A stretch of DNA of 64,000 bases, from the NCBI RefSeq assembly GCF_030503875.2, contig NZ_CP129968.2, forward strand, positions 558,001-622,000, written 5' to 3'. Shown one piece after another: positions 1 to 19,393 of this stretch (position 1 is the stretch's first letter; every line of letters begins with the position of its first letter). The notes under the pieces are model-generated. The model was not told where the DNA came from. It searched no databases and was given only the letters and a program-made list of their open reading frames with translations. Origin of the DNA: Marivirga arenosa. Lineage in GTDB: Bacteria; Bacteroidota; Bacteroidia; Cytophagales; Cyclobacteriaceae. The position numbers and the translations under genes were made by a program.

Positions 1-1229
1 ATAAAATTAAAATGGCTGTTGTGAGAATTATGGGTAAAATTGGTGGAGATGAAGCCGAAGCTTTATTGTTGAAAAAAATTGATTACCCAGACAAAAGAGT
101 GGTTTATGAAATGCTTAATGGGTTTGGGTATGAGGATTTTAATGCGGAAGGAAATCAAGCCCAAATTATCATAACCCTAATAGAAGAAGAAATTGGGAAG
201 GCCATTTGGAATATGGCGGCTTTGCAAGAATTACCTAAGGAAGAAAAATTTGAAATATTAAGACAAGCTTTTAAAGAGGAAATTGGGCATAATTATGAAC
301 AGGTTTTTTTATTGCTCTCTTTAATCTATGATACTGAATCAGTATCGCTGGTAAAAGAAAATATCCTATCAGATACTTCAGAAGGAATTGCCTATGGAAT
401 TGAGCTTCTGGATATGTTCATTGATTCAGAATTAAAGTCAAAACTCTTTCCTTTGGTTGATGATATTAGCACTAGTGAAAAAATTAAATTGCTTGATAAC
501 TTTTTTCCTCGTGAAAAATTTGAACCACTCCAATTATTAAAAAACATCTTAAATAGAGACTATAATCAGATTTCTCGCTGGATAAAAGCTTGTGCTCTAT
601 ATTCTCTAGCCTATCACGAAGGTTATGAACCCAGTTACGCAGTAATTGCTCACATCTTTAACAAAGACAGACTATTACAGGAAGTTGCTGTTTGGTTGCT
701 GTATCATCGAAATAGAGAGCAATATGAAAAGGTAATTTCAAGATTAAATCAAGAAGATCAAGACCAACTGATCAAAATCATTTCAAGTAATCAATTGGAT
801 GATGGTTTAAATGATGGGTATTTCTTATTAGTAGAAATCGTGATGTTTCTAAAACAAATTGAAATATTCCATAAAATAAATGGTGATCAATTATGTGAAC
901 TGGCTGATAATACTCAAGTAATCAGACTAAAGACAGGGGATAAAATTGATTTAAAAAATCTCGAGAATAATGCCATTTATGTAGTAGCGTCTGGTAGTCT
1001 ACATCTACAGACTGAATTTGAAGCAGATGTGAAACTAGTAGAAAAGGATGTGTATGGAGAGTTATTTATCCCTGAAAAACATCTCAAAGCCGAAAGCCTA
1101 ATCGCAGATGAAAATGCAGTAGTATTTCAACTAAATATCAATAATTTCTACACATTAATGTCTAGAAGTCAAGAATTTACAAATCAGTTATTTACTGCCA
1201 TTACCCAACATTATCAATCAAAAATATGA
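1..1229 (+). CDS. HEAT-repeat protein with C-terminal cNMP-binding-like domain (5' partial)
   Basis: The reading frame is open to the left edge of the window (codons before the ATG at 12 are also sense), so the gene very probably begins upstream. About the first 280 visible residues are helical pairs typical of HEAT repeats. The last ~110 residues look like a cyclic-nucleotide-binding beta-roll, but the phosphate-binding cassette (normally GE...R.A) reads GELFIPEKHLKAESLIADE with no conserved Arg, so cNMP binding is doubtful. In Cytophagales, HEAT plus CNB tails occur on Npt-like MFS nucleotide transporters; whether a membrane part lies upstream cannot be seen. The stop overlaps the start of the next gene (ATGA), so the two are translationally coupled. 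Probably a regulatory or scaffold subunit of the following TIR/STAND operon (inference). Confidence 0.7.
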   Translation, partial: KIKMAVVRIMGKIGGDEAEALLLKKIDYPDKRVVYEMLNGFGYEDFNAEGNQAQIIITLIEEEIGKAIWNMAALQELPKEEKFEILRQAFKEEIGHNYEQVFLLLSLIYDTESVSLVKENILSDTSEGIAYGIELLDMFIDSELKSKLFPLVDDISTSEKIKLLDNFFPREKFEPLQLLKNILNRDYNQISRWIKACALYSLAYHEGYEPSYAVIAHIFNKDRLLQEVAVWLLYHRNREQYEKVISRLNQEDQDQLIKIISSNQLDDGLNDGYFLLVEIVMFLKQIEIFHKINGDQLCELADNTQVIRLKTGDKIDLKNLENNAIYVVASGSLHLQTEFEADVKLVEKDVYGELFIPEKHLKAESLIADENAVVFQLNINNFYTLMSRSQEFTNQLFTAITQHYQSKI

Positions 1230-2686
1230 ATGACAAGCTAGAAGTAAGTATTATATATTCTGAAAGAGATAATGAGCCAATTCTGGACGATAAGGGCTGG
1301 GTAAGCTATTTTGAAAAGTTTCTATTCATGATGCTAAAGCAGACTATGAATAGAGAGATTAAAATCAATTTAATTTCTGATGAAACTCCTCAATTTAAGT
1401 TCGGTAAGAATAGTTTATTTATTCCAATTTTATCTCCAGATTTTATACTATCCGGTGCTTGCCTTGATAGAATAGAAGAGTTATTTCAACCATCCAAAGC
1501 TGAAAAAGCAAACGAAACTACATTTCCCGTTTTCAAATCTCCATTAGCCTATGTGGATATGCCAGAAAAGCTTAAAGCGCTTAGGTCGTACATCTTTTAT
1601 TTAAATACTGAAAATGAGGAACAAGAACTTATGGAGTTCTTCTCAAAGGAAGCAGAAAAGGGCTATTGGATGAAGATGGTGGATTTATGTTTCGATATAT
1701 ATGAAACCATCCTTAAAATGAACCATAAAGAAAGTGAAAAAGAAAAGCATGGAAGAAGAGCTATATACCTAGCTGAAACTGGGCAGGATTTGGCAGGAGC
1801 CAGAAATATCATTAAAAGAGAATTGACTCGCCATGGATATGAAGTTTTTCCTAAGAGTTTATTACCTCATACTTCAGCAGCAATTAAAAAATCAATAAAA
1901 GCTGATTTAGAGAAATGTCATTTTTCCATTCATATGATTGGAGCCTCATATGGAACTATTCCTAACGGCTCTGAAAATTCAATTATGGATATTCAGAATA
2001 GTATGGCGGCTGATTTTGCGAAAAGTCATTCTTCTGATTTTAATCGCCTAATCTGGATTAGCCCTGCTTTAAAATATGCTAGTGAAAAGCAGCGCTCCTT
2101 TATACACAATATTAAGCGTGATGATAAAGTATCCTTTGGGGCAGAAGTACTACAAACCTCTTTGGAGGATTTCAAAAATACCCTTTGGGAAGAATTATTA
2201 GATAAAGGACTTAATAAGAAATTAAGGAGTCAGAAAGAATATAATGAGCAGAAAAAACCTATCATTTACCTTATTTATGATGAGATTGATTCCATTTCTG
2301 CCACTAAGTTAAAGCAAGATATTCAGCAGTTTGATGTGGAGTTGATCACTTTAGAAGCTCAGGGGGGCTTGATGGATTTAAGAAATAAGCATATTGACGC
2401 ACTCAAGAAAATGGATGCAGCAATAGTGTATCAAAGCGAAGTCAATAATCAGTGGGTTTATATGAAATTACTTGATTTGCTTAAGGCTCCTGGATTTGGA
2501 AGATCAAAGCCGGTATTAGGGAAGCTTTTGATATCTGAAAAGTCAAAAGGTACTGAGGATGAGTTTATTAGTAGATATGAAGTAGAGGTAGATACAACTA
2601 AAGATTCAAAAAATTTAAGTAAATTTATTAGTGATGTAAAAGTGGCTTTTGATGAAAGCCATGCTAATGTGGCAAGAGAAAGCTAA
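1226..2686 (+). CDS. Protein with three tandem TIR-like domains
   Basis: 486 residues, no signal peptide, cytosolic. Three Rossmann-like TIR-type segments can be read. Residues ~5-150 have VSIIYSERDN and the box SPDFILSGACL (70-80). Residues ~176-320 have IYLAETGQDLAGARNIIK, then HMIGASYG and RLIWISP, a layout seen in TIR/DUF4062-like proteins. Residues ~344-440 have IYLIYDEID and a grid of hydrophobic strands. In NAD-cleaving TIRs a Glu sits three residues after the Trp-Cys; here C79 is followed by LDRIEE, so the catalytic position is shifted or missing. The start overlaps the previous stop by 4 bp, and the next gene begins 2 bp after this stop. The context next to an nSTAND-WD40 protein suggests a signalling adaptor or an effector in a conflict-type system. 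Function is inferred from fold similarity only. Confidence 0.65.
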   Translation: MNDKLEVSIIYSERDNEPILDDKGWVSYFEKFLFMMLKQTMNREIKINLISDETPQFKFGKNSLFIPILSPDFILSGACLDRIEELFQPSKAEKANETTFPVFKSPLAYVDMPEKLKALRSYIFYLNTENEEQELMEFFSKEAEKGYWMKMVDLCFDIYETILKMNHKESEKEKHGRRAIYLAETGQDLAGARNIIKRELTRHGYEVFPKSLLPHTSAAIKKSIKADLEKCHFSIHMIGASYGTIPNGSENSIMDIQNSMAADFAKSHSSDFNRLIWISPALKYASEKQRSFIHNIKRDDKVSFGAEVLQTSLEDFKNTLWEELLDKGLNKKLRSQKEYNEQKKPIIYLIYDEIDSISATKLKQDIQQFDVELITLEAQGGLMDLRNKHIDALKKMDAAIVYQSEVNNQWVYMKLLDLLKAPGFGRSKPVLGKLLISEKSKGTEDEFISRYEVEVDTTKDSKNLSKFISDVKVAFDESHANVARES

Positions 2687-2688
2687 AA

Positions 2689-5600
2689 ATGCAAGACGAA
2701 AAAGTAAGCATATCGAATAATAAAAGCACACAATACGGGAAAAAGAATAATCCTTTCCCTGGCTTGCGTCCTTTTAAAATTGAGGAAAGTCATCTGTTTT
2801 TTGGAAGAGAAGGCCAAAGTGATGAAGTATTACTAAAACTTTCGAAACACAGATTTGTAGGAGTAATTGGTCCTTCAGGAAGTGGTAAATCTTCTTTTAT
2901 TTATTGTGGTGTTTTACCTATCCTTTATGGAGGCTTTTTAACTGGTCGTTCTACAAATTGGGAAGTTGTAGTTACTCGCCCAGGAGCAGCTCCTATTGAT
3001 AATCTAGCACAATCTATTTTTAAATCAGATTCCAAGGGCAAAAAAATATCTGAAGAGGATGCTAAAATTAAACAAACCATAATTTCATCACTTCTTAAGA
3101 GTTCATCGGTTGGTTTGGTAGAAACCATTATGCAAATCAAAGGAGATGAAGAAAAGAACTATTTAATACTAGTTGACCAATTTGAGGAGCTATTTCGCTT
3201 CAAGGATTCCTCAAATATGCAATCCGTTAATGAAACTTTAGCTTTCATAAACCTATTAATGGAAGCCGTGAATCATGCGGATGTGCCTATTTACGTGGCC
3301 ATCACTATGCGTTCAGACTTCATTGGTGAGTGTTCACAGTTTCCTGAGTTAACTCGTCAAATTAACGATAGCCAGTATCTAATTCCTCAAATGACAAGGG
3401 AGCAAAAAAGAAGAGCAATTACTGGTCCTGTTGCAGTAGGAAATGCTGAGATTGCTCCAAGATTAACGCAGCAATTACTAAATGATTTAGGAGATAATCC
3501 AGATCAACTCCCCATTTTGCAGCATGCTTTAATGCGTACCTGGGATTATTGGAGCCATTTTAGAGATTATGATCATGAGCCACTAGACATCAAGCATTAT
3601 GAAGCAATTGGTACTATGTCGGAAGCCTTATCCATGCATGCCAATGAGGCTTATGAAGAATTGAATGAGGAGCAACAAAGAAATTGCGAATTTTTATTTA
3701 AAGCAATCACTGAAAAAAGAGGGGGTGGAAGTTATGGAGTAAGAAGACCCACTCAGCTTCATGAAATTGCAGCAATTGCAAATTCTTCCGAAGAGAAAAT
3801 CATTCAAGTTATTGAGAAATTTAGAGACCCTAGTCGCTCTTTACTAACTCCACAATTTGGAATTCCATTGCATAGTAATTCCATCATTGATATTTCTCAT
3901 GAGAGTATTATGAGAATTTGGAGCCGCTTGAAAAACTGGGTGAATGATGAAGCCGATGCTGTGGCTATGTATAAAAGGCTAGCTCAAGCTGCTGATATGT
4001 TTCAACAGGGAAAAACCAGTTTGTGGCGACCGCCTGATTTGCAATTAGCCTTAAACTGGAAAGAAAAACATAACCCAACATTAGTTTGGGGGCAACGGTA
4101 TCACCCTGCTTATGAAAGAACGATTTCTTTTTTAGAGCATTCAGCAGAGGAATATGAAATAGAGCAAAGAGCGAAGGAACTACAACAAAAAAGAAGATTA
4201 AGGACTGCTCGATTAACAGCTCTCATTATGGCTGGAGCTACTGTGATATCAGTATTGTTCTTGATTTATGCTTTCTATCAGCAAACTGTTGCTGAACGTA
4301 ATGAAAGGCTCGCTATGGAGCAAAAGGATATTGCAGAACAACAGAAAGAGTTAGCAGAAGAACAAAGATTAATAGCAATTCAGAAAGAGGAAGAAGCCAC
4401 AGAAGCTAAAAATGATGCGGAAGAAAGTGCAGATCTAGCCGAGCAACGAAGAATTCAAGCAACACAATCCGCAGCCTTAGCAGAAGAGAGAAGAATAGCA
4501 GCCGTTAAAGCTGAAGGAGAAGCGAGTCAGGCTGCAATAGCAGCCAGAGAAGCTGAAAGGCAAGCTAATTTAGAAAAAGAAAGAGCAGAGCAGGAAAAAG
4601 CCAGAGCTGATCAATTGAGATATTTAGCGATTGCTAATGCTATTGCTGTAAAAGCGCCTCAGTTGAATGATCCACAACTGAAAGGCTTATTAGCTCAACA
4701 AGCCTACAGCTTTAGTAAGCGCTACAGTAATTATAATTATGACCCTGAAATTTATGATGGCTTGTATTATGCATTGAAAGAATTCAATCATCCGCTTACC
4801 CATAAAATTAAAGGGCATAATAAATCAGCGAAAGTAGTAATTGGAGGTAAAAATGATAATGAGTTTTATTCTGCAGGGGCCCAAGGAAGTATATTAAAAT
4901 GGACTGAAACTTCTAGTCAATGGGTAGCCGATACTATTGCCCCAATTAGAAATAGAAGGGTGGTAAAATCCATGATTTTTGATGAGGAAAATAACATCAT
5001 GTTTGCAGCAGGGCAATTCATTACTGAAAGTGGGGAATCCATTATTGAAAGTTATGATTTAACTCAAAACAGACCAGATCCTAAAATTATTAAAGGAGTA
5101 AGTGGTGCTTTTGTTAAAATGTATTTGGCAGATGATCATATTTGGGTTTTGGATGAAGGAGGTACTTCAATTAAGAAACTGGTAAATGGAAAAAGCCAAA
5201 AGATTTATCAATCCGATATAAAAATTAATGACTTTACAGTAGAAGAGAATAAGGATAATATCTGGTTAGCCACAGAAAATGGTGACTTAGTCAAAATTAA
5301 TAAAGCCGGTGAAGATGCCACGATTATGTTTACCAATTCAGCAGAATTAAGCACTATTACCTCTAAATTTAATTTTATCGTGATTGGTGATATAAATGGA
5401 ACTGTAAACCTATTCACTGACTATAATTTTTCTGCTCTAAACGCATTAACAGGACATATGGGAGGAATAGACGAACTGAAAGTAAGCGATAATGGAAGCG
5501 CATTATTATCGGCTGCTAAAGATAAAACTGTAAGAGTTTGGAATCTTTCTGAAATTACTCAACCCCCTATAGTATTATCTGATCATGATGACTGGGTTTG

Positions 5601-5820
5601 GTCAACTGATTTTAGTGCAAATAACAAATGGATTTTCTCAGCATCAGAAGATGGGCTTATAAAAGTATGGCCTTATTCAACAGAAATTATGGGAGATAAA
5701 CTTTGCAATGAGTTAAACAGAAATATGTCACAAACGGAATGGGCTACTTATATAGGCAGTGATTTAGATTATGAAAAAACGTGTGAAAACCTTGAAAAAT
5801 TAACGGATGCCAGTCAATAA
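2689..5820 (+). CDS. nSTAND1 NTPase - membrane helix - coiled coil - WD40 propeller protein
   Basis: 1043 residues. The N-terminus carries the nSTAND1 entry motif NPFPGLRPF (21-29) and FFGRE, Walker A GPSGSGKS (61-68) and a Walker B-like YLILVDQFEELF near residue 160. A winged-helix/helical region follows to ~500. A single hydrophobic helix at ~508-530 (LTALIMAGATVISVLFLIYA) precedes a ~110-residue Ala/Glu/Gln/Arg coiled coil and then a propeller (~690-1010) with WD40 units such as DKTVRVWNL and DGLIKVWPY. The C-terminus has the EW..Y....D..YE.TC motif common at the end of such proteins. With basic residues before the helix, the NTPase should be cytosolic and the propeller periplasmic (inference). 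STAND NTPases act as ligand-triggered switches. Its 3' end overlaps the next gene by 14 bp. Confidence 0.85.
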   Translation: MQDEKVSISNNKSTQYGKKNNPFPGLRPFKIEESHLFFGREGQSDEVLLKLSKHRFVGVIGPSGSGKSSFIYCGVLPILYGGFLTGRSTNWEVVVTRPGAAPIDNLAQSIFKSDSKGKKISEEDAKIKQTIISSLLKSSSVGLVETIMQIKGDEEKNYLILVDQFEELFRFKDSSNMQSVNETLAFINLLMEAVNHADVPIYVAITMRSDFIGECSQFPELTRQINDSQYLIPQMTREQKRRAITGPVAVGNAEIAPRLTQQLLNDLGDNPDQLPILQHALMRTWDYWSHFRDYDHEPLDIKHYEAIGTMSEALSMHANEAYEELNEEQQRNCEFLFKAITEKRGGGSYGVRRPTQLHEIAAIANSSEEKIIQVIEKFRDPSRSLLTPQFGIPLHSNSIIDISHESIMRIWSRLKNWVNDEADAVAMYKRLAQAADMFQQGKTSLWRPPDLQLALNWKEKHNPTLVWGQRYHPAYERTISFLEHSAEEYEIEQRAKELQQKRRLRTARLTALIMAGATVISVLFLIYAFYQQTVAERNERLAMEQKDIAEQQKELAEEQRLIAIQKEEEATEAKNDAEESADLAEQRRIQATQSAALAEERRIAAVKAEGEASQAAIAAREAERQANLEKERAEQEKARADQLRYLAIANAIAVKAPQLNDPQLKGLLAQQAYSFSKRYSNYNYDPEIYDGLYYALKEFNHPLTHKIKGHNKSAKVVIGGKNDNEFYSAGAQGSILKWTETSSQWVADTIAPIRNRRVVKSMIFDEENNIMFAAGQFITESGESIIESYDLTQNRPDPKIIKGVSGAFVKMYLADDHIWVLDEGGTSIKKLVNGKSQKIYQSDIKINDFTVEENKDNIWLATENGDLVKINKAGEDATIMFTNSAELSTITSKFNFIVIGDINGTVNLFTDYNFSALNALTGHMGGIDELKVSDNGSALLSAAKDKTVRVWNLSEITQPPIVLSDHDDWVWSTDFSANNKWIFSASEDGLIKVWPYSTEIMGDKLCNELNRNMSQTEWATYIGSDLDYEKTCENLEKLTDASQ

Positions 5821-6829
5821 AATAATCATATTAAGCTTCTGTATATTGGCATTTTCCTTTTTAGGTAATGCGCAGACTTCCTGCGTTCAAAATTTAAGAG
5901 ATGCTCGAAATGCATATGATGAAGGAAGGCTAAAAACTCTTTCGAACCTATTATCAAATTGTGTTGAAGATGGATTTACAAAGGAGGAAAAAGTTGAGGC
6001 GCTCAGGTTAATAACATTATCTCACTTATTTAATGAAGATCAAGCTGAAGCAGAAAAATCCTATTTAAAACTTCTTAAGATTAATCCTGAGTTTACACCA
6101 AATGAGGAATCTGACCCTATCGAATTGATAATTCTTGCGGAAAATTTTGATGCTGAACCAAAGTTTTTTTTCGGCTTTAAAGGGGGCGCTTCCTACAATA
6201 TCATGCAGATTCAGTATGAAAGTAATCATAATTTATTACTTCCAGGTACTTACGATTTTCCACTAGGAATATCAGGCGGCTTATTTTTTCAATATCCAAT
6301 TACCAAAGAAATTTCAGCGAATTTAGAAGCTATTTACAATTTCAGAAATACAATTCTTAACAGGCCAATAGAAAGTGCTGAAGGTAATAATTTTCAAATT
6401 ATTGAAGAAACACAGCAATGGTTAGAAATGCCAATTCTAGTTAATTATAAACTTCCTTGGGTCAAAAAATTCTTATTGGAAGCCACAGCTGGGCCATCTT
6501 TTCATTATTTATTGATGTCAGGTGTTAATCTTAATGGCTTAGGGGAAGAGTTGAATAATTATGACATGTTATCCTTCAGAAATCAATTTAATATGAGCGG
6601 AATTTTAGGGTTGAGAGCCAATTTTAAAGAATTGGGTGTGAATTTTATCACCACTGAACTGCTATTTCAATATAGAATTTTAGATGAAGTAAATAAGTCT
6701 GCGATGACAGAGCAACAAAGATTAGAATTGAATAGCGTTGCTTATTCCAATTTTGATTATAAAGGCCACGCGATTTGGTTAAGATTAGGCATTCGTTTTC
6801 CATATTTTAAACCAGAACTTAAAAAATGA
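5807..6829 (+). CDS. PorT-family outer-membrane beta-barrel protein with N-terminal helical repeat
   Basis: 340 residues. A signal peptide (IIILSFCILAFSFLGNAQ) is followed by a short TPR-like helical region (~25-110, with the pattern EAEKSYLKLLKINPEF) and then by alternating amphipathic strands from FFFGFKGGASYNI to the end (WLRLGIRFPYF), typical of PorT-like outer_membrane_beta-barrel proteins. The start lies inside the 3' end of the NTPase gene (14 bp overlap) and the end overlaps the next start, so all are expected on one transcript. TPR-plus-barrel proteins of this kind occur beside PKD/adhesin cargo in Cytophagales. A role in anchoring or exporting its neighbours is inference. Confidence 0.75.
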   Translation: MPVNKIIILSFCILAFSFLGNAQTSCVQNLRDARNAYDEGRLKTLSNLLSNCVEDGFTKEEKVEALRLITLSHLFNEDQAEAEKSYLKLLKINPEFTPNEESDPIELIILAENFDAEPKFFFGFKGGASYNIMQIQYESNHNLLLPGTYDFPLGISGGLFFQYPITKEISANLEAIYNFRNTILNRPIESAEGNNFQIIEETQQWLEMPILVNYKLPWVKKFLLEATAGPSFHYLLMSGVNLNGLGEELNNYDMLSFRNQFNMSGILGLRANFKELGVNFITTELLFQYRILDEVNKSAMTEQQRLELNSVAYSNFDYKGHAIWLRLGIRFPYFKPELKK

Positions 6830-7992
6830 GAAAGCTTTTAATTTACATACTAATTCTCAACATTGGATTATTGCAGCTAGCTTGTAATACCGAGGAAGGA
6901 CTTGAACCAGTAACTCCTAAAAATTATTTTAAGATTTTAGAAGGAAGAGGTACAGATAACCCAATCGCAATTAGGTCATTATCGGATGGAAATTTACTAA
7001 TTGTGTCTAACACCACTTCTTTTGAGCAAGGAGAGCAAATTAGAAAAATTCGCGTACTGAAAATTGATTTAAACGGTAATGTTTTAAATGAAAGATATTT
7101 ACCTGAAAATAATGAAAATTGGTCTGCTAAAGATGTTCTAAAATTAACAAATGATGAAATAGTAATTGCTTCAACCTCTATCAATAGTATAGCTGAAGAT
7201 AGTAGTTTAGTTTTTTATAAAATTAACAGTAATCTTGATTCGCTAAGTGCTACTACCCACCATAATTCTGCTACCTATAATTTGTACGGGGTGGCCGAAG
7301 ATCAAAATGAATTATTATTCATTGCTCAAGAATTTAAAGATCAAACATCCTATCCCATTATCGGAAGAATTGATTTAAGTAGTTCCAATATTATCGATAT
7401 TAAATCGGCAGAAAAATATGATGTTCCACCCGCTACAAAAGTCTATAGAAATGCAGTTGGAGAATATATATGGGCTTATAATAGAACCAGGTCTTATCTG
7501 GCAAAAGTACAACCCAATCTGTTGCAGGTTAATGATCAGGAAATTCACATCGGAAATAATTTATCTTCTTCTGTTAAGGCTGAAAAATTATTGATGATAA
7601 ATATGAATCCAATTGTGTTTGGAGAACTAACACAAAACGGCAATAATCAACTATTCTATTACAGCCAAGAAAGCGGAAGTTCTTTTGTTTTTGGTGAATC
7701 AGGTGATGTTTTTCTGAATAATGTACAGAAAACGGAATCTGGATATTTGGTAACAGGCTTTCAATCATTACAGATTGATGGCTCCGAAAATAGACAAACC
7801 AACTTCTATTTTTCCCGAAGAAATGCTAATGGAGGTGAAATATTCTCTAAGGCCTTTGGCACTAATGAAAATGAGGAATTAATGGATGCCCTTATGATAA
7901 ATGATGGTATTTATACTATAGGTAAAACCATTTTCGGAGGTGAAAACACATTAATTTTAATTAAAACAGATGCCTTTGGGCGATTACAATAA
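6826..7992 (+). CDS. Outer-membrane lipoprotein, probable beta-propeller
   Basis: 388 residues. The signal peptide ends in the lipobox LQLAC with Cys20, so the protein is lipid-anchored. The mature part has repeated strand patterns of the type DGNLLIVSNTTSF, IRVLKIDLNGNVLNE, GIYTIGKTIFGGENTLILI, with FG.-type loops seen in delta-60 or kelch-like propellers that lack enzyme motifs. It starts 4 bp inside the preceding gene (ATGA). It is followed after 24 bp by the giant exported protein, so it may be a surface partner of that protein. No known family name can be given with confidence. Confidence 0.7.
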   Translation: MRKLLIYILILNIGLLQLACNTEEGLEPVTPKNYFKILEGRGTDNPIAIRSLSDGNLLIVSNTTSFEQGEQIRKIRVLKIDLNGNVLNERYLPENNENWSAKDVLKLTNDEIVIASTSINSIAEDSSLVFYKINSNLDSLSATTHHNSATYNLYGVAEDQNELLFIAQEFKDQTSYPIIGRIDLSSSNIIDIKSAEKYDVPPATKVYRNAVGEYIWAYNRTRSYLAKVQPNLLQVNDQEIHIGNNLSSSVKAEKLLMINMNPIVFGELTQNGNNQLFYYSQESGSSFVFGESGDVFLNNVQKTESGYLVTGFQSLQIDGSENRQTNFYFSRRNANGGEIFSKAFGTNENEELMDALMINDGIYTIGKTIFGGENTLILIKTDAFGRLQ

Positions 7993-8016
7993 ATACATGC
8001 TTAAAGGCATATTTTT

Positions 8017-11000
8017 ATGAAAAAATCTTTATTCTTTATACTCTTTTTAATTGGCTCTATAGCATCAGCATTATCACAAAACCTTACTGATGTTAATGGA
8101 GATGCCGCTACAATTATTACCGATAATACTGCTACTGTATCTGGAGAATTGGTTTCTGATGGTGCAGTTGATGTAAAATATCAATTTCGGTATGGAACTA
8201 GTGCAGCTACTTACCCAAATTCAACTCCTTTTCAAGTAATTAATGTAAATACAAATGAAATTGTGAATAGTGGGTTGACGGGTTTAGATCCTGCTGAACA
8301 ATATTTTTATGTCTTATATGGAGAAGAAGATGCAAATGCTTCTGTAAATTTCACCTCTTCAGAGCAATCTTTTTTTACACTTGCTACCTTACCAACCACC
8401 TCTGTATCTAATTTTGTTTTAGATAGTAAATCAAGTAGTAATGCTACCTTTACTTACACGCCACACTCCTTTTCTATAAATGGGGGATATGTTTTGTATA
8501 AATCAACTGGAGCAGGCGCAATTGATTTAACAAGTTTAGAAAATGCAACGGATCCTGATGGTCAGGTAGCGGCTCTCTCTGGAAATGATGTTTGGGAGCC
8601 CGATGAAACCGTAGGGTCAATAAATTTCCCTTCACTTTCAGCAGCTACCCAATATACAATGACTTTGGTAAGTTACAATTCTGATGGTTCTAATGCACAA
8701 ACCTTAAACTATAGAAAATCAGACCCTCCTAGCGTAACCTTTTTCACACTTTCTAATCCTCCTGCTAACAAAGCTGATGGAGGAAGCTTTTCAGTTTCAA
8801 ACATAACAACTAATTCAGCTGATATCAATTGGAATGATGTTACCAATGCTGATAAATACCTTATTTTATATACTCAGAATTCTGCTGATTTAGATATAAA
8901 TGATGTGATAGATGGCAATGCACCAGCTGATTTAACATTTCCTGCTGGAGTAAGCTACACTACTTCTGCTACTAGTAATGTTTCTCTTTCTTCACTTGAT
9001 GCAAATAGCAACTATAGTTTTTATATTATTCCATATGCTGAAGGAGCTGATCCTTCAACGATAAATTATATCACACAAACAGGTCCTGATTTGGATAGTT
9101 TTACCACACTTTGTGCACCACCCGCTGCACAATCTACTTTTAATACTATTGATCCAGCAGATATTAACCCCTTAAACATTACAGTAAGTTGGAATACAGT
9201 TTCAGGTGCAGACCGATATTTAGTAGTTGTAAAAGAAGGGGCAGCTGTTTCATTTGAACCTGTAATAGGGGACTCCTATTCTGCAGATGCTAATTTTTCT
9301 GGAGGGTCTGATTTACCGAATGGATCAGGAACTAATAAAGCCGTTTATAATGGGATTGGAAATAGTATAACAGTTACAGGATTAGATTTATCAACCACCT
9401 ATCACTTTGCAGTATTTGCTTATAATTCAGATGGTAATTGTTATGTAACTCCTGCCTCACCCGGAACTATCTCAGCATCAACAACAGGAGCTGCTGCTAA
9501 TGGTACGATTTCTTTTAATTCTGCTTCCGTAAGCATCAATTCGGTAACTAATGATAATTCAGGGGCTAGAGTTGCTATTCTCGATTTCAATATTATCGAT
9601 AATGGTACTGATGGAATACCAACAGAATTAAATAGATTAGCATTTTCTATTGCGGCTGATGATGATTTTGAATTGGAAGGAATTGGCTGGGATGATATAA
9701 TTGCAGATGCAAGATTGGTCAATATTACTTCTGGTGGGAATGAAAGTGCAGTCAATATATTAGCAGACAGTATTATCATTGAGTACTCAGGGAATGAGAG
9801 TGATCAAGCAGGAGAAAAAGGATATATTGCCGATAATACTACCTCAAATTTTCAGCTTCAAATACGGTTAAAGGATAATATTTCGTCTGTAATTGATAAT
9901 AAAAATATAGTCGTTGAACTTTATCCTTCTAAAATGACAGTTCAATCAAATTCAAGTTTATTTGATGCCTCTTCTTCATCCATTTCATCAGGTACCACAA
10001 ATAACAAAGTTGAAGTTATTGCATCCGAGTTTAATTTTACTCAAGAGCCTTCTCCTACCACAATAAATGCAACTGAAAATTTTACCACGGCTCCACAAGT
10101 AGAGGTAACTGATGAAAATGGAAATTTAGATTTGGATTATGTAAATGGGTACTCACTGGGTACCGGTGGAATTTCTGTTCAAAACCCTCCTGCTAATTTC
10201 AATAATGGAGTTTTAGATTTTCCGGCAAATTTTAATTATCAAGGTAGTGGAGACGGTACCCTTTCGATAGAAGATGCTGGCAATTCAATTTCAATTGCCA
10301 CAAGTAATACGATAACCGTAAATCCAAAAATCACCCTTAGTGAAATCGGAGCAGTATATAATGATGGCGATTTAGTGAATGGTGCTACGGATGAAATATT
10401 AGTTGGCTTTGACATTACAGCTCTCAGCAGTGCAGAGATTAATGATATTGTTTTAGGGTCTGATCAGGAATTAATAGGCAAATTGAGTAATATAAGATTG
10501 TATGCATCAACTGATGATACATTTGATGGTGCAGATGTAAATATATCAACTGGATCCGTAAATGATAATGGTGTAAATACTGAAATTTCTTTTGCTTCTT
10601 TAACCGAGAGTATTGATAATAATTCCTCCTATTATTTTATTGTAGCAGCGGTTAGTGCAACGGTGCCAGCCTCTACACCTGATATTACTTTTAGTTTAAT
10701 AAGTTCTAATTTTAACTTTCAAGAAAGTTCATATTTATTTCCGGCAATCACTATTGATAAAACTTATAGTTTTCAAGATTTAACGCCACCAGAAATAGTT
10801 TCTATTAATGCTTCTCCAGCAAGTATATCGGATGATAATACAGGGGTTGAAGCTTTTCAAATTAGTATTGAGTTTGATGAAGAAATGATAACCGATGGAA
10901 CGGCAGACCCAGTTATTACTTTCCCAACAATAGGTGAAGATCCAACAACTAGTATTACATTTTCAGCAACTAGTAGTGGCTGGGATGTAGCAGGATTGGT

Positions 11001-14000
11001 ATACACTTCTTATTACAATGTTGTAGATGTTGGACAAACCATTAAAGATATTGATGTAAATATTGCATCTGCAAAGGATATCTCGGATAACAGTATGATA
11101 GCGGTTGATGAAAATGATTTATTCTCTATAGATACTGAAAATCCAACAGCTTCATTGTCTTTAAATCAATCTTTGGTGAATTTGCCTAATAATACAATAG
11201 AATTGACGGCAGATTTTGGAGAGTTGATGGATACAGGAACTGAACCAACGGTTACTATTTCAGCGCCTACTAACTTCAGTCTTGAAAGTGGGAGCTGGGT
11301 TAATTCGCAACGATATGTTTACTCTTTTACTCATGATGGTACTGAAGAAATTATAAATAATGCTTCTATTACTATTTCGGGGGCATTAGATGAGGCTGGA
11401 AATAGCATGAGCAGTACTGATTCTGATCCATTTAATATCAATACTATTCCGCCAAAAATTGAAGCCATAAGTTCAAGCAATACAACAGGATCATACAAAG
11501 AGGGAGATGGGCCGATCGAAATTACTATTGATTTTGATGAAATTGTAACTTTAGGAGGCACTCAGAGCCCACAGCTAATTTTAAATTCAAGTGGTTCAGC
11601 AATTGCCACTTATAGTAGCCATACTGATGATTTAATTGTATTCAGTTATACCATTACTGCAGGTGATAATGCTGATCCTTTAGAAGTGTTAAGCCTTGAT
11701 CTAAATGGTTCAACTATTGTAAGTAGCAGTTCTTTAAATCCAGCGGAATTAGGTTTACAAGGAAATGCCCTTTCTGATGATAAACAATTAAAAATTGATA
11801 CTCAATCACCTTTTATAACCGCTATAACTTCCAGTACAGTTGATGGGATTTACGGTCCTGGTGAAATTGTGAATATTAAAGTGATATTTAATGAAAATAT
11901 CCAGCAAACGGGTGTTCCTCCAACTTTAAATTTAAATACTGGTGTTTCTGCCATTTTTGATGATATAACAAATGGGAATGAATTAAATTTCACCTATACC
12001 ATCGGTGGAATCAGTCAGGGTGAAAATACTAACGATTTAGCGGTTTCCTCTATCTCCTTATCCCAAAATGAGATATTAGATTTAGTAGGAAATCCTTCCG
12101 ATTTAACATTAAACGGGGCGAATAATACCTTAGCTGCAAATAAAGCTATTATAATTGATACGGAACCACCGAGCTTAGATCCGAATCCATTTTCTCCAGC
12201 AAATGGAAGTTTAAATGTGTCTCAAACAGAAACCTTTGCGATTACTTTAAATGAACAAGTTACAGGTGCTGGAACAGCTAATATAAGACTTATTGATGTT
12301 GCAAGTGGGTCTACTTTGGCCACTCTCGATGGATCTACCGCCTTTGCAAACTCAAGTGCAACTACCCTAAATTTTAATTCTTTGGCAGCCTCTCTTCAAG
12401 ATTCAACGGAATATTATTTTGAATTTGATGCTGGAGCCATTACGGATATAGCAGGTAATCCATTGGCTGCTTTTAATGGGGTTTCAAATTGGTCATTTAC
12501 GACTTTTGGTCCAGCGAGAATTGATGATTTTTCTATTGCTGCATGTGTGGGCGAGGTATTTACAATTTCAGGGCAATACTTTACAGGTGTAAGTCAAATT
12601 CTTACGGATGTAGAAAGTGGTTCTCCTTTTGAAATTACTACTTTTTCAATTGATGATGATAATACTATTTCATTTACAGTGCCAGCAGGAACAGTACCAG
12701 GAAAAATCACTTTAAATAAAATTAACGGCCAAGATGGTAATACGGATGATGCTTCCACTACCTCTACAACGGCAATTAAAGTTGGACCAAGTAGCGGACA
12801 GATTGTATTGGTAAGTGTGGGAACGGATGTTGTTTGTGATGTACCAGGAACAGAGGCAGCACCTATAGAAACGGCTATTCAATTTGATATTGTCGGAGGT
12901 TCTGGAACCTATACAGTTCAGTATTCAGATGGAGTAAACATCTTTACTGAAAATAATTATTTGTCTGGAGAAACTGTTCAAGTTAACCCACCTGTTTCAG
13001 GTGCAAATACCTATTCAATCATATCCATTATCGATGAGGATCCTGATTTGAATACCTGTAGTGCTGCAGATAATGGAGTTGATTTAGTGATAACAGAATA
13101 TGAGCAATCAAATGTGGAAGCAGGAGGTATTTTCGACTCAGATTTAGGTGTCAGTACGGTTGCAGTTTGTTTAGCCCAAGATGACCAAGTTGATTTATCA
13201 GATGGAGCTTTAATGGGTGTGTTACCAAGCATAGTAGGAGATATTACATCTGGGGAATGGACTATTGTGGATGGACCAAGTTCTGGTGGAGGAGGTTTCT
13301 CAAGTAATTTTAGTGATAAAACGACTACAAGCTTAACTCCTACCTACTATCCTAGTCTGGCTGATGCGGCATATGGAAGTATCACCTTAAGATTAACTTC
13401 TGACGATCCAACCGCTCCGAATCCATGTTCTCAAGATTTTGATGAGATTACGATTGTATTCGTTAATACGATATCTGTAAATGTTGGGCCTGATTTAAAC
13501 GCTTGTATTCAAAATGATGGAAGTGGACCTTATGTGATTGAACCTCTTAGTGCTACTTTAGGTGGAGGAGCAACTTCTTTAGAATGGTCAAGAAATGATC
13601 AATACGGTGAAAACGGTGTACATGATGGGTCATGGGGTTTTGCGGCTTCTGCTAATGCCACAACATTTACTTTAACTTCTACTTTAGAGAATCCTTTTTA
13701 TAAAGCAAGTCCTCAAGAAATTGCAAATGGATTAGCAACCGTTGGTGCTATTCCAACAAGTGGCGGATGTGGAGGTACTCCACCACCAGAAGAATTGAAT
13801 ATTAATATCAATGATTTACCAGCCCCAACTATATCCTTAGCTCCTGCTAATGTATGTAGCGGTGAATTTGGCGTAAGATTTAGAATGTCTCCTAGCAGCA
13901 CCTCAAGTACATTTGAATGGACACTGTCTAATGAAGGTTCAGATACACCAGGGCAAAATGATAAAAACAGTATTGATGGTCCTAGAACTGGAAATATAAT

Positions 14001-17000
14001 TTTTGTTGATTTTAAGGAAGTAACCACTGAGACAGTTGAAACTATTACTGTAAAAGAAATTAATCCAATTACTACATGTGAAAGTGTTGTTCAAACCATA
14101 AATGTTACCATAAAACCAGCGCCAGTTGCTAATATTACCTACACAGGAAATACAACCGTTTCACAAGGTGATCCAAGGTTTTTATTAACTGGAGAAGGAG
14201 GACAAATAGGAAATATTCAGTCAGGTGGTGTTTTCTCTGGTCCTGGTGTCGTGCAAGATTCTGATGGGAATTATTATTTGGATCCTAGTATTTTAAATGT
14301 TACCGATATATTTGATCCTGCAGATGATCACATTATAACTTTTACCTATACAGATGAATTCGGTTGTTCCGCATCCGAAACCATAAGGTTTAATGTTTAT
14401 GCTGAAAACTCAAGTTTCCAGAATTTACTAGCTCAATATTGTGTTTCTGATGAAGAAGATATCATCTTCGTTCAGCCCAGTATACTTGGGGATGATTTTG
14501 AAGTCATTTCGATTCAGGGTCCTGGCATAACAGAATTAGGTTTACAAACTGAAATTATAGATGGTACCCCAACACAAGTTTTTAAAGCAGTGTTTAATCC
14601 ATTCATTGCATATGAAGAGAATCAAGCTGCTGCAGATCCTTCCGCAGTAGTAATATCCTTTTCTACTCGCGAAAAGTTAAATCCTGCAAATGTGATTTTG
14701 GAAGCGGGTTCTCAAACAGTTAGGGCTAATCCATTGCCAACATTAGAATACCAAGGACCTGAATATGACATGTGCACCTATGATGAACCAGCTGATTTAG
14801 AGGCCTTAGGTTCTAATAATCAAAATACCTATTCATTTGTTTTGAAAGACACCTTAAATCAAGCCTCATTTCCATATAGTTTGATAATTGGAGATGTAAA
14901 TGTGGGATTACAGTTTGACCCTGCTCCACTAGATGATTATTTGGATAGTATTGGAGAAGAATCTATAGAGGTTTGGATGGAATACAGTTATACCAATTTG
15001 AATTCATGTTCAGCTACAGAAACATTCAGTTTTATAGTGTATAAACAGCCGGAACAACCCTTGTTATCAAGTACTGATTTATGCAATATAAATGGTAACA
15101 TTGAAGAAGCTTCTGTTACTAATTATGATGGTACAAATCCAATCCAGGAATTGGAATGGTTTACCAATGTGGATTTAACGGGAGAACCTATAGGCAACGG
15201 TTTAACTTTCACTCCACCTTCCGAATTATTTGCGAATAGCAATGAAGTAAAATTTTATGTTGTACGTAAAAATGTAAATAGTTCAGGAGAAGATGATGAA
15301 TTGTGTAGCAGTAACGCTACAGAAATCACCTATAGATTATTAGGCGTTCCAACCTTAGAGTGGAATAAATCAAGTTATGGTAGTGCTCCTATAATTTTTA
15401 CAGCTAATCATAATGAAAACAATGTTGCCAGTTATGATTGGTTCATAAATAGAATTACTGATAACGGACTTGAATTAGTATATTCCGAGAATCAAACTAA
15501 TATAGATCTGAAACAATTAACTGTTGATTTTTCCCAATACGGAGCAGGTCAGTATCAAGTGGATTTCGTTATTAATACCTTATTCAACTGTAATACATCT
15601 GTAAGCCATCAAATTGTAGTGGTACCTGAATTAAGTAGCTCTTCTAATTTTTCTTTTGATTTTAATTCCTCTAATAATGAATGGGTAAGCTCCATTGATA
15701 CTAATAATTCTTGGGAGTGGAATCAACCTGGTGATTCTTCAAGCATAATTTCAGAAAGTAAATTATGGATCACAAATGCTAATGGATCTTACAATCCAGG
15801 AGAACAATCTTATGTATATTCTCCAGTAATGGATATTAGCCAAATCGAAAAACCTGCTGTTAATTTTGATTTATGGATAGATGTAATTGATAATGTGGAT
15901 GGACTGATTTTAGAATATTCTACGGATAATTTGAGAATTGAAGACCCCAATAAACAATGGAGCCTTTTAGGTAATTTTGATGATGGTATATCATCTGGAT
16001 TGAATTGGTATGAAAGCTCTGCAATTAGATCCAGACCAGGAACTGATAATATTACCGCTTCTGGTCTTGTCAATAATAACGTTTTTGGTCAAGGTTGGTC
16101 AGATGAAACAATTCAAGATGAATTGGTAAAAAGAATTCAGGCAAAACATGCTTTGGATGTATTATCACAAAGTGAAAGATCAAATGTGATGTTCCGTTTT
16201 CAATTTAAATCCAACAATACTGGCTTTCTACCTGATGGAGTGGCTTTCGATAATTTCGCAATTGGTAGTTTAAATAGAAATGTGCTGGTTGAATATTTTG
16301 GCAATGAAGAAGTCAATTCAGATGCGACCGAAATGGATTCACTAAATTCAAGGTTTGCTCGGTCCACAAGTTTTACTTGGATTAACTACAGATTGAATGA
16401 ATCTGATCCTTTATTTGTGCAAAATGCAAGTGCTATGCTATCTCGTATCTATCAATATGATGCATATGAAGCTGATAATGCTTTTTCAATAGATGGAGTG
16501 CTCAATAATGAATTTTCGTTTAGTTCTGATGCTGCTCAAAACCAATTAAATAACAGCTTATTAGTTTCAAGCGCAGTAAATCTTTCAATGGAAATATCAA
16601 AAGCAGCGGATGATCAATTGAATGTAAAAGTTAATTATAATTCGAATAGTGTTTTTAGTGAAAACGCCAGACTTTTCGTTACTGTTCTTTATAAAGAGGT
16701 TTCAGGAGGTGCATTGGAGACCAATTCTGCTAAAACCTATTACAACGTTTTAAGGGAGATATTACCCCAAGTGGAGGGAGTGGATGTATCGGGTAATGAA
16801 AGTGGACAATTGGAAACTTCCTTTTTAGCAACTAGTGCAAATGATGCTGAACCATTAATGGTGGTGTCCTTTATTCAGGATATTGAAACGGGAGAGGTTT
16901 TCCAAAGTGATTTTGTGACTGATGTACCTCTACTATCTTATTCCAATGTAACTTTTAATACAGCTCTGGAAGAAATGAATGTAAATTTATACCCTAATCC

Positions 17001-17223
17001 AGCCAGAGATTTCGTGAACCTTCAGTTCAATTCAACTTTAAATGAAGAGCTAAGCATAAGGGTTTATGATATGCGGGGAAGTGAATTAGAAGCCATTAAA
17101 TTACCAGCAGGAACCACTCAACATGAATTATCTACTCAGTCTTTTAAAACAGGGATGTATCATATTATCATCTCTAACGACAAAGGAGCATTCAAAAGGT
17201 TGAAATTTTCGGTGATGGATTGA
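8017..17223 (+). CDS. Giant T9SS-exported multidomain adhesin-like protein
   Basis: 3068 residues with signal peptide (FFILFLIGSIASALSQ). Readable modules in order: four fibronectin-III-like units (~20-490); Ig-like units (~490-900); repeated bacterial Ig/Bap-like units opening with D-x-x-x-P and having F-D-E/N-E (about 900-1385); a Big_5/SbsA-type Ig unit (about 1387-1500, ADIAGNP-like ending); an IPT/TIG-like unit (~1500-1590); a long beta-rich stretch with PKD/gliding-like segments; an Omp28-like segment near 2755 (NVLVEYFGNEEVN) without the usual cysteines; and a type A T9SS sorting domain (~2988-3068) with NLYPNPARD and a GMYHIIISN end. It should be secreted across the outer membrane by T9SS and attached to the surface, probably for adhesion or gliding. 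It ends the six-gene run. Confidence 0.85.
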   Translation: MKKSLFFILFLIGSIASALSQNLTDVNGDAATIITDNTATVSGELVSDGAVDVKYQFRYGTSAATYPNSTPFQVINVNTNEIVNSGLTGLDPAEQYFYVLYGEEDANASVNFTSSEQSFFTLATLPTTSVSNFVLDSKSSSNATFTYTPHSFSINGGYVLYKSTGAGAIDLTSLENATDPDGQVAALSGNDVWEPDETVGSINFPSLSAATQYTMTLVSYNSDGSNAQTLNYRKSDPPSVTFFTLSNPPANKADGGSFSVSNITTNSADINWNDVTNADKYLILYTQNSADLDINDVIDGNAPADLTFPAGVSYTTSATSNVSLSSLDANSNYSFYIIPYAEGADPSTINYITQTGPDLDSFTTLCAPPAAQSTFNTIDPADINPLNITVSWNTVSGADRYLVVVKEGAAVSFEPVIGDSYSADANFSGGSDLPNGSGTNKAVYNGIGNSITVTGLDLSTTYHFAVFAYNSDGNCYVTPASPGTISASTTGAAANGTISFNSASVSINSVTNDNSGARVAILDFNIIDNGTDGIPTELNRLAFSIAADDDFELEGIGWDDIIADARLVNITSGGNESAVNILADSIIIEYSGNESDQAGEKGYIADNTTSNFQLQIRLKDNISSVIDNKNIVVELYPSKMTVQSNSSLFDASSSSISSGTTNNKVEVIASEFNFTQEPSPTTINATENFTTAPQVEVTDENGNLDLDYVNGYSLGTGGISVQNPPANFNNGVLDFPANFNYQGSGDGTLSIEDAGNSISIATSNTITVNPKITLSEIGAVYNDGDLVNGATDEILVGFDITALSSAEINDIVLGSDQELIGKLSNIRLYASTDDTFDGADVNISTGSVNDNGVNTEISFASLTESIDNNSSYYFIVAAVSATVPASTPDITFSLISSNFNFQESSYLFPAITIDKTYSFQDLTPPEIVSINASPASISDDNTGVEAFQISIEFDEEMITDGTADPVITFPTIGEDPTTSITFSATSSGWDVAGLVYTSYYNVVDVGQTIKDIDVNIASAKDISDNSMIAVDENDLFSIDTENPTASLSLNQSLVNLPNNTIELTADFGELMDTGTEPTVTISAPTNFSLESGSWVNSQRYVYSFTHDGTEEIINNASITISGALDEAGNSMSSTDSDPFNINTIPPKIEAISSSNTTGSYKEGDGPIEITIDFDEIVTLGGTQSPQLILNSSGSAIATYSSHTDDLIVFSYTITAGDNADPLEVLSLDLNGSTIVSSSSLNPAELGLQGNALSDDKQLKIDTQSPFITAITSSTVDGIYGPGEIVNIKVIFNENIQQTGVPPTLNLNTGVSAIFDDITNGNELNFTYTIGGISQGENTNDLAVSSISLSQNEILDLVGNPSDLTLNGANNTLAANKAIIIDTEPPSLDPNPFSPANGSLNVSQTETFAITLNEQVTGAGTANIRLIDVASGSTLATLDGSTAFANSSATTLNFNSLAASLQDSTEYYFEFDAGAITDIAGNPLAAFNGVSNWSFTTFGPARIDDFSIAACVGEVFTISGQYFTGVSQILTDVESGSPFEITTFSIDDDNTISFTVPAGTVPGKITLNKINGQDGNTDDASTTSTTAIKVGPSSGQIVLVSVGTDVVCDVPGTEAAPIETAIQFDIVGGSGTYTVQYSDGVNIFTENNYLSGETVQVNPPVSGANTYSIISIIDEDPDLNTCSAADNGVDLVITEYEQSNVEAGGIFDSDLGVSTVAVCLAQDDQVDLSDGALMGVLPSIVGDITSGEWTIVDGPSSGGGGFSSNFSDKTTTSLTPTYYPSLADAAYGSITLRLTSDDPTAPNPCSQDFDEITIVFVNTISVNVGPDLNACIQNDGSGPYVIEPLSATLGGGATSLEWSRNDQYGENGVHDGSWGFAASANATTFTLTSTLENPFYKASPQEIANGLATVGAIPTSGGCGGTPPPEELNININDLPAPTISLAPANVCSGEFGVRFRMSPSSTSSTFEWTLSNEGSDTPGQNDKNSIDGPRTGNIIFVDFKEVTTETVETITVKEINPITTCESVVQTINVTIKPAPVANITYTGNTTVSQGDPRFLLTGEGGQIGNIQSGGVFSGPGVVQDSDGNYYLDPSILNVTDIFDPADDHIITFTYTDEFGCSASETIRFNVYAENSSFQNLLAQYCVSDEEDIIFVQPSILGDDFEVISIQGPGITELGLQTEIIDGTPTQVFKAVFNPFIAYEENQAAADPSAVVISFSTREKLNPANVILEAGSQTVRANPLPTLEYQGPEYDMCTYDEPADLEALGSNNQNTYSFVLKDTLNQASFPYSLIIGDVNVGLQFDPAPLDDYLDSIGEESIEVWMEYSYTNLNSCSATETFSFIVYKQPEQPLLSSTDLCNINGNIEEASVTNYDGTNPIQELEWFTNVDLTGEPIGNGLTFTPPSELFANSNEVKFYVVRKNVNSSGEDDELCSSNATEITYRLLGVPTLEWNKSSYGSAPIIFTANHNENNVASYDWFINRITDNGLELVYSENQTNIDLKQLTVDFSQYGAGQYQVDFVINTLFNCNTSVSHQIVVVPELSSSSNFSFDFNSSNNEWVSSIDTNNSWEWNQPGDSSSIISESKLWITNANGSYNPGEQSYVYSPVMDISQIEKPAVNFDLWIDVIDNVDGLILEYSTDNLRIEDPNKQWSLLGNFDDGISSGLNWYESSAIRSRPGTDNITASGLVNNNVFGQGWSDETIQDELVKRIQAKHALDVLSQSERSNVMFRFQFKSNNTGFLPDGVAFDNFAIGSLNRNVLVEYFGNEEVNSDATEMDSLNSRFARSTSFTWINYRLNESDPLFVQNASAMLSRIYQYDAYEADNAFSIDGVLNNEFSFSSDAAQNQLNNSLLVSSAVNLSMEISKAADDQLNVKVNYNSNSVFSENARLFVTVLYKEVSGGALETNSAKTYYNVLREILPQVEGVDVSGNESGQLETSFLATSANDAEPLMVVSFIQDIETGEVFQSDFVTDVPLLSYSNVTFNTALEEMNVNLYPNPARDFVNLQFNSTLNEELSIRVYDMRGSELEAIKLPAGTTQHELSTQSFKTGMYHIIISNDKGAFKRLKFSVMD

Positions 17224-17275: not shown

Positions 17276-17283
17276 TATATTTG
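17276..17283 (+). promoter_or_regulatory. Putative -7 box for the Wzm-like permease gene
   Basis: TATATTTG fits the Bacteroidota -7 consensus TAnnTTTG and lies 52 bp before the ATG at 17335. No good -33 TTTG is seen; TTCG at 17251 is the nearest. The 111 bp gap separates the giant-protein operon from the polysaccharide locus. Confidence 0.4.
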
Positions 17284-17334
17284 TATTTATTTTTAAAATC
17301 TGAGTATAAAGTTCAGAAAAGAATACATTTAATA

Positions 17335-18162
17335 ATGGAAAGACTAGTAGTTGATGCTTCTAAGCCCAAATGGCACATTAATTTCAAAGAATTGTGGGCC
17401 TACCGTGATTTATTCTACATTTTGGCTTATCGTGACCTCAGAGTACGTTACGCACAGACTTTTCTAGGCTTATTATGGGCATTTATTCAGCCACTAGCCA
17501 CCCTTACTATCTTCACTGTAGTTTTTGGAAAAGTGGCAGCAGTTGAAACCAACGGCATACCCTATCCACTTTTTGCAGTATGTGGAATGGCAACCTGGTC
17601 TTACTTTTCATTTGTCTTAAACCAATCGGGGAATTCTATTATAGGAGCGCAAGAAATGGTCAAAAAGATTTATTTCCCTCGTTTAGTTATTCCTTTATCA
17701 AAAGCCTTAGTAGGCTTTGTAGATTTTGCTATTGCTTTATTATTCGTAGTGATTCTGATGTTTTACTATGGTTATATCCCTTCTGCAAATATTATTTATG
17801 CTCCTATTTTTATAATCTTAACCATTATTTCGGCCCTGGCAGTGGGGGTGTGGTTAAGCGCTTTAACCATTCGTTATCGTGACTTTCAACATGTAGTTCC
17901 TTTTTTAGTACAGTTTGGATTGTACGCTACTCCCGTGGGTTATCAGGCTAAAGATGTAATTAAAAGATTACCTGAGTGGGGCTCTTTCCTTTATTATGCT
18001 AACCCAATGGCGGGTATAGTAGAAGGTTTTCGATGGAGTTTGTTAGGAGGAGCGCCTCCAAGTATTTATGCTTATTTCTCGTTTTCTATCGTGATTCTTT
18101 TATTTGTTAGCGGACTTCTATATTTCAAAAGAGTAGAGAAAGTGATGGCGGATATAGTATGA
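17335..18162 (+). CDS. Polysaccharide ABC exporter permease (Wzm/TagG-like)
   Basis: 275 residues from the ATG at 17335 (MERLVVDASKPKWHINFKELW). An in-frame TTG at 17281 would add 18 residues but coincides with the putative promoter. The protein has an amphipathic N-terminus, then YRDLRVRYAQTFLGLLWAFIQP, the hallmark of ABC-2 type O-antigen/teichoic-acid permeases, and six hydrophobic helices. It should pair with the Wzt-like ATPase at 20259 to flip a lipid-linked polysaccharide across the inner membrane. Unusually, it is separated from its ATPase by an antiterminator gene and a sulfotransferase gene. Confidence 0.88.
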   Translation: MERLVVDASKPKWHINFKELWAYRDLFYILAYRDLRVRYAQTFLGLLWAFIQPLATLTIFTVVFGKVAAVETNGIPYPLFAVCGMATWSYFSFVLNQSGNSIIGAQEMVKKIYFPRLVIPLSKALVGFVDFAIALLFVVILMFYYGYIPSANIIYAPIFIILTIISALAVGVWLSALTIRYRDFQHVVPFLVQFGLYATPVGYQAKDVIKRLPEWGSFLYYANPMAGIVEGFRWSLLGGAPPSIYAYFSFSIVILLFVSGLLYFKRVEKVMADIV

Positions 18163-18301
18163 TAGAGGCTAGATTCCAGAACCTAGAGTCTAGATTGCGA
18201 AATGCTCAATATATTTGACTTCTATCCACAGGCTTCCAACTCCCAACTTCCCTTCTTTATCGAAATCATATGATTTACTTCCATTAAACTATAGGATGAA
18301 T

Positions 18302-18309: not shown

Positions 18310-18328
18310 TATAATAAAATAGTAGATT

Positions 18329-19210: not shown

Positions 19211-19233
19211 CTAAAGATAAAACCAAAAATTAA

Positions 19234-19335: not shown

Positions 19336-19393
19336 AACAATTAATCCAATGCAAACTAGCTAGAAATTATGCAGTTTATGGATTAGTAATATA

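Follow-up and report, generated by a model that had tools for sequence, protein, structure and literature searches.

We analysed a window of 64,000 nucleotides from Marivirga arenosa (Bacteroidota, Cyclobacteriaceae; contig NZ_CP129968.2, positions 558,001 to 622,000), at the beginning of which six open reading frames follow each other closely on the plus strand (Table 1). An earlier note on this DNA had proposed that these genes form one operon reaching from the cytosol to the cell surface. All six frames were present, and their coordinates, overlaps and gaps were verified. Only the 3' part of gene 1 lies within the window; the gene starts 1.9 kb further upstream (genome position C1:556089; L001:16089-19229 in our locus set). 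The gene order is not a product of chance, as it recurs elsewhere in the M. arenosa genome, at a second locus, and in related loci. That is, the operon represents a real, conserved multi-gene system with no match to a known kind within the literature and libraries searched. No published description of it was found in the literature covered, which was partial.

Table 1. Genes and features of the operon (window positions).
Feature	Position	Strand	Description	Junction with the following gene
Gene 1, 3' part	1..1229	+	NTT (ATP/ADP-carrier-like, 12 transmembrane segments)-HEAT-CNB protein; full length 1046 aa	1229/1226, overlap of 4 bp
Gene 2	1226..2686	+	three TIR/deoxyribosyltransferase-like Rossmann domains, 486 aa; accessory subunit	2686/2689, gap of 2 bp
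Gene 3	2689..5820	+	nSTAND1 NTPase, single transmembrane segment, charged helical linker, WD40 propeller; 1043 aa	5820/5807, overlap of 14 bp
Gene 4	5807..6829	+	outer-membrane beta-barrel OMP_b-brl_2 with signal-like N-terminal segment and TPR-like region; 340 aa	6829/6826, overlap of 4 bp
Gene 5	6826..7992	+	beta-propeller-like lipoprotein, 388 aa; lipobox cysteine is residue 20	7992/8017, gap of 24 bp
Gene 6	8017..17223	+	giant surface protein (adhesin), 3068 aa, fn3 domains, type A sorting domain of the type IX secretion system (TIGR04183/PF18962)	
Conserved C-terminal module of the adhesin	15541..16995	+	upstream of the sorting domain	

Domain profile matches upheld the assignment of gene 3 as an nSTAND1 NTPase with WD40 repeats, of gene 4 as a barrel and of gene 6 as a surface protein of the type IX secretion system (T9SS). 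The STAND protein matched the nSTAND1 profile with E 5.8e-97, in addition to WD40, and its transmembrane segment spans residues ~511-529. Among 76 STANDs, the Walker A and Walker B motifs were each intact in all 76, and one transmembrane segment was found in 73 and two in the remaining three. Lysine and arginine residues were more numerous before this segment than after it in 75 of the 76 proteins. Thus, the STAND is predicted to reside in the inner membrane, with the NTPase in the cytosol and the WD40 half in the periplasm.

For the barrel, OMP_b-brl_2 (E 4.9e-10) was the sole barrel family among the Pfam matches up to E 1, and the PorP/SprF family was absent from them. Its TPR-like region gave weak matches to TPR and TssQ families, while the barrel profile found no match among PDB sequences. 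In the M. arenosa genome, the TPR-like region together with the barrel was matched at two operons only, and six other matches covered the barrel part alone. A profile built from 39 of the lipoproteins matched the CylK propeller (E 1.2e-17); split-half testing of the lipoprotein profile recovered the gene in the expected slot in 71/71 loci, with 0 matches elsewhere in those loci. The adhesin matched Por_Secre_tail (E 1.6e-13) and fn3. Its sorting domain is of type A: TIGR04183 was the sole sorting-domain NCBIfam match up to E 0.1, and a type B C-terminal domain was not found in this search. Complete adhesins (26 in total) ranged from 1331 to 2470 aa, and the C-terminal region of the window adhesin was matched in all 26 and in the second copy. 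Most of these matches span at least 500 residues; those in L061 and L062 are weak. Within the M. arenosa genome, the module upstream of the sorting domain was matched in the two operon adhesins only.

The second copy comprises, on the same strand, genes for an NTT-type protein, a SpoIIE-type phosphatase (E 1.2e-13), TIR, STAND, barrel, lipoprotein and a giant adhesin. Identity to the window proteins is low (TIR 28%, STAND 40%, barrel 28%); profiles without the second-copy rows still matched its NTT-type protein (7.3e-36), TIR (1.4e-47) and barrel (1.1e-56). Its adhesin (L003/L004, genome region C1:1929646) is an open frame of 5750 aa with many near-identical repeats, which we take to resemble those of SprB. 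In another family, one locus (L127) has the order NTT-SpoIIE-TIR-STAND, so the SpoIIE-type phosphatase is recurrent as well.

We then searched the genome_contigs collection for relatives of the two M. arenosa STANDs by means of two peptide patterns, which yielded 512, and retained the best 80. TIR was present in 78 of these loci, the barrel in 78 and NTT in 76, and every miss fell at a contig end. The lipoprotein was found in 71; six misses were contig ends and three were broken barrel frames (L034, L070, L074), behind which lipoprotein- and adhesin-sized frames are visible. A frame of at least 1000 aa occupied the adhesin slot in 51 loci, and in 13 others the frame there was shorter and cut by the contig end; of the rest, 13 loci counted as contig ends and 3 had the slot behind the broken barrels. 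All six genes were present in 51/80 loci when the adhesin frame had to reach 1000 aa, and in 63/80 when shorter, contig-cut adhesin frames were added.

Ten strong barrel matches without a TIR gene nearby were chosen by eye among the matches listed. The STAND gene adjoined the barrel in all ten, and a lipoprotein match followed in nine. The earlier note had named a usual separation of barrel, lipoprotein and adhesin from the TIR/STAND pair as evidence against one system; what we found was a STAND beside every one of these barrels. Seven of the ten loci (L087, L088, L090, L092-L095) have the order NTT-STAND-barrel-lipoprotein followed by a long frame in the adhesin slot (775 to 2205 aa, all cut by the end of the stretch). 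In the STAND tree, eight TIR-less loci form one clade (support 1.0), and the remaining two, L086 and L089, fall with the second M. arenosa copy (support 0.958). Since TIR-less operons keep STAND and barrel, eight of them within a supported clade, the TIR-like protein is an accessory and not an essential subunit. All TIR-less loci but one (9/10) retained NTT; the NTT-HEAT-CNB protein, being kept when TIR is absent, is therefore the better candidate for a constant inner partner.

These data bear on the simplest alternative, namely that the genes are co-transcribed neighbours without a joint machine, their order being preserved by vertical inheritance and owed to chance or shared regulation only. 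Vertical inheritance is able to preserve gene order, and a QueA-like gene recurs in the upstream flank of 46/63 evaluable loci. However, the paralogous operons of M. arenosa keep the core set at different chromosomal places despite different flanks, and so do TIR-carrying and TIR-less operons that coexist in one genome. We consider this alternative very improbable.

The TIR-like protein was examined in its own right. Its three domains span residues 1-167, 177-326 and 343-481. In a second-look structure alignment, domain 1 aligned mainly to TIR chains, domain 2 best to DNPH1 and then to TIR, and domain 3 gave tied Z-scores across several Rossmann-like folds. Of the triple TIR described earlier, three Rossmann-like domains thus stood, whereas mainly TIR matches were obtained for domain 1 alone; the protein nevertheless counts as having a TIR fold. 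Foldseek with the gene 2 model returned no strong full-length match, the TIR profile matched a single designed protein among PDB sequences (E 0.041), and the PF13676 profile found no match in the M. arenosa genome. Out of as many as 78 sequences, the alignments of the operon proteins kept between 30 and 61. Residue 82, placed by a sequence motif and presumably corresponding to the catalytic glutamate of plant TIRs, is glutamate in 1/61 sequences; at the catalytic position of domain 2, which we likewise assume from a motif, 60/61 sequences have glutamine. E84, close to residue 82, is kept in 59/61 and could substitute. Because glutamate is not conserved at the position assumed to be catalytic, TIR catalysis, and with it an effector role, appears doubtful. 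From other members of the TIR/DNPH1/nucleoside deoxyribosyltransferase fold, gene 2 differs in its three tandem domains and in that the expected glutamate is mostly absent.

Such a protein beside a STAND could nonetheless suggest a conflict or phage-defence system of the STAND-TIR class with a sensor reaching through the envelope. CNB modules are a typical feature of conflict systems. The same holds for nSTAND1, which is named in such systems, and for TIR modules, according to two accounts (PMC8195603, PMC10907252). The operon shares with conflict-system STANDs the intact Walker motifs, the C-terminal WD40 repeats and the TIR-like partner, and its outer half evolves fast. It differs in that no effector domain was seen on the STAND, that the TIR-like partner is optional and mostly lacks the expected glutamate, and that outer-membrane and surface partners are added. 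In a PADLOC search (2023 library), TIR, barrel and lipoprotein had no match up to E 0.01, and the matches of STAND and NTT were weak, at the level of the P-loop and the CNB domain, respectively.

The distribution of the TIR gene also bears on a defence function. The TIR profile matched 139 of the 245 genomes of the family (E 1e-20) and 11 of 295 across the class (E 1e-5, several partial). Among the 28 of 84 genera with at least three sampled genomes (denominators from the genome list of the GldJ scan), TIR was present in all genomes of 14, in none of 10 and in some of 4. Hence 24/28 genera were all-or-none, compared with a mean of 2.5 and a maximum of 8 when labels were shuffled. Such genus-coherent presence is what a trait maintained by vertical descent would show, and it does not resemble an accessory defence system, although no defence gene served as control. 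Taken with the absence of TIR from some operons, a defence function is improbable. GldJ (TIGR03524), tried in the same genomes to mark gliding ability, was dropped, as 243/245 family genomes matched, none above the cut-off; these are probably GldK-type paralogues.

Divergence was compared among pairs of loci whose STAND NTPase halves share at least 85% identity (131 to 964 pairs, which are not independent; proteins within set length limits). Median identity was 87 for the NTPase half, on which pairs were selected, 69 for TIR, 61 for NTT and 52 for the WD40 half, followed by 40 for the barrel, 34 for the C-terminal module of the adhesin, 29 for the lipoprotein and 18.5 for the N-terminal part of the adhesin. 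Divergence thus increases broadly from the cytosol to the surface.

Gene 1 had been described from its 3' part as a cytosolic HEAT-CNB-like protein. Its N-terminal part contains 12 predicted transmembrane segments, and the NTT-part profile matches ATP/ADP carriers (9j3j, E 1.8e-17, PDB sequence search), so it is an inner-membrane protein instead; the NTT part of one protein, as a single-sequence query against PDB, gave no match. The family profile matches the CNB domains of PKG, PKA and HCN, and the single-sequence Pfam match was below the cut-off. Within residues 989-1006, where we assume the arginine of the phosphate-binding cassette to lie, no column of the alignment (31 sequences) had arginine as the common residue. 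Essential residues of AtNTT1 could not be placed on gene 1, since the numbering did not fit, and this attempt was dropped. The second-copy NTT-type protein was matched mainly in its HEAT-CNB part and has five transmembrane segments at the same threshold. With the membrane part reduced there and the assumed CNB arginine not conserved, nucleotide sensing or scaffolding appears as likely as transport. According to Major et al. 2017 (PMC5381601), NTT-HEAT-cNBD fusions are widespread in bacteria, including free-living ones, and it is unknown how their domains interact and what the fusions do. Gene 1 has the same three-domain architecture but, unlike the fusions described previously, belongs to a conserved operon; we came across no other context of this kind. 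Across the class, the NTT profile matched 18/295 genomes (E 1e-20). At one locus of another family (L125:1286-18764), an NTT gene lies upstream of a giant frame of 4627 aa on the same strand, with neither STAND nor barrel between them.

The outer half of the operon recalls known T9SS adhesins. According to a published account (PMC9143113), SprF binds SprB, and PorE, PorP and PG1035 form a complex. A PorP-like barrel that holds a type B adhesin, as in these cases, is the nearest functional precedent. As in these systems, a T9SS surface protein is encoded with a cognate outer-membrane barrel. As in PorE-PorP-PG1035, a PorE-like gene (TPR-PD40-OmpA) may be adjacent: it lies divergent from NTT in 34/63 evaluable loci (e.g. 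L011:2777-5101), the Marivirga loci not being among them, and might link the operon to T9SS components. The set could be dedicated to biogenesis, with barrel and lipoprotein collecting and anchoring the adhesin after T9SS export, as SprF does with SprB, the NTT, TIR and STAND proteins regulating expression or assembly from inside the cell, and no outside-in sensing. The precedents, the PorE-like neighbour, and the position of the adhesin as last gene with a common C-terminal module are in line with this alternative. It fits less well that the window adhesin carries a type A sorting domain and that the barrel had no match to the PorP/SprF Pfam family; moreover, a pure anchor would have no need of an inner-membrane NTPase and its periplasmic propeller. 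In contrast to SprB/SprF and PorE-PorP-PG1035, the operon also includes a lipoprotein resembling a propeller and, at the inner membrane, a STAND and NTT module. We regard a dedicated biogenesis set as rather unlikely.

Taken together, the six genes behave as one evolutionary unit, as the earlier note had supposed, and their topology, domain content and broad divergence gradient fit a set that extends from cytosol to surface. Judged by sequence, the best reading is a trans-envelope complex rather than an NADase defence system, and a joint machine appears the likeliest of the readings weighed. Specifically, we assign a probability of roughly 0.5 to the reading that the gene products assemble into a single complex across the envelope, through which an ATP-dependent STAND switch in the cytosol is coupled to the giant T9SS adhesin. 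In such a complex, the STAND would sit in the inner membrane with its NTPase facing the cytosol, and its helical stalk and WD40 propeller would bridge the periplasm and meet the barrel at its TPR-like region. On the outer side, barrel and lipoprotein would grip the C-terminal module of the secreted adhesin, so that the nucleotide state of the STAND could be coupled to the adhesin. In an outside-in mode, a change of the adhesin, such as binding or pull, would shift the contact between barrel and WD40 propeller, and the STAND would switch between ADP and ATP states; in an inside-out alternative, display or release of the adhesin would depend on licensing by the STAND. The NTT-HEAT-CNB protein would be the usual inner-membrane partner, which most likely senses the nucleotide state, serves as a scaffold or moves nucleotides as an output. 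The TIR-like protein might serve as an optional scaffold or ligand-binding subunit, and the SpoIIE-type phosphatase would join some copies. Tentatively, at less than even odds, we would go one step further and picture an integrin-like adhesion receptor, working inside-out or outside-in, in which the STAND reads or sets the state of the adhesin through barrel and propeller lipoprotein and NTT acts as sensor or output.

Several observations weigh against such a coupled complex. The choice of the best 80 of 512 relatives favours close ones. Outside the family, NTT relatives mostly have no STAND neighbour: of 14 genomes with such a relative, 12 regions were examined, and 10 had no STAND beside NTT in the stretch covered (in L128, the sequence ends inside the gene following NTT). 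The lipoprotein profile without the second-copy row did not match the second-copy lipoprotein, which as a single-sequence query matched 1/80 loci; it is therefore a slot equivalent and not a shown homologue. Individual loci depart from the pattern. L052 and L072, two of the 13 loci counted as contig ends, lack a normal adhesin frame: in L052, the 1.9 kb that follow the lipoprotein contain a frame on the minus strand, and in L072, the adhesin slot has a 415-aa frame with a run of N. Among TIR-less loci, L091 has no NTT, L086 a repetitive gap of 2.4 kb in place of the lipoprotein, and L089 no adhesin downstream. Moreover, the divergence gradient is not strict among three Marivirga (TIR 53-56%, WD40 half 55-64%, barrel 48-54%), the low pTM of the gene 2 model (0.56) leaves its domain arrangement unfixed, and promoter and terminator scans of the loci gave no usable excess; the motif TAnnTTTG occurred upstream of NTT in 8/69 loci against 16.1 in shuffles, that is, without enrichment.

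Some of these exceptional loci have features of their own. The minus-strand frame of L052 (L052:12176-13879) has an adhesin-like composition and faces the lipoprotein gene; inversion or misassembly are both possible. The gap in L086 (L086:9327-11731) consists of direct repeats of roughly 840 bp without long frames. In L089, an opposite-strand gene occupies the adhesin slot, with NTT, STAND, barrel and lipoprotein present.

Directly 3' of the window adhesin, a surface-polysaccharide cluster begins (window 17281-24809). It includes an ABC-2 permease, the likely ATG of which lies 111 bp from the adhesin stop, a NusG-like factor, a sulfotransferase and a Wzt-like ATPase, followed by methyltransferase- and glycosyltransferase-like frames that were assigned by eye. 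From 22 kb onward, the GC content drops to 28-29%. Between adhesin and cluster, the sequence TATATTTG (window 17276-17283) presumably matches the -7 promoter element of Bacteroidota, but a search for a corresponding -33 element there gave none.

If the complex exists as proposed, Bacteroidota would possess a new class of path for signalling or control that crosses both membranes and ties a STAND switch of the apoptosis type to a secreted adhesin. The operon would then offer a concrete, testable context for the NTT-HEAT-cNBD fusions of free-living bacteria and, should the integrin-like reading be true, would provide a first function for these proteins.

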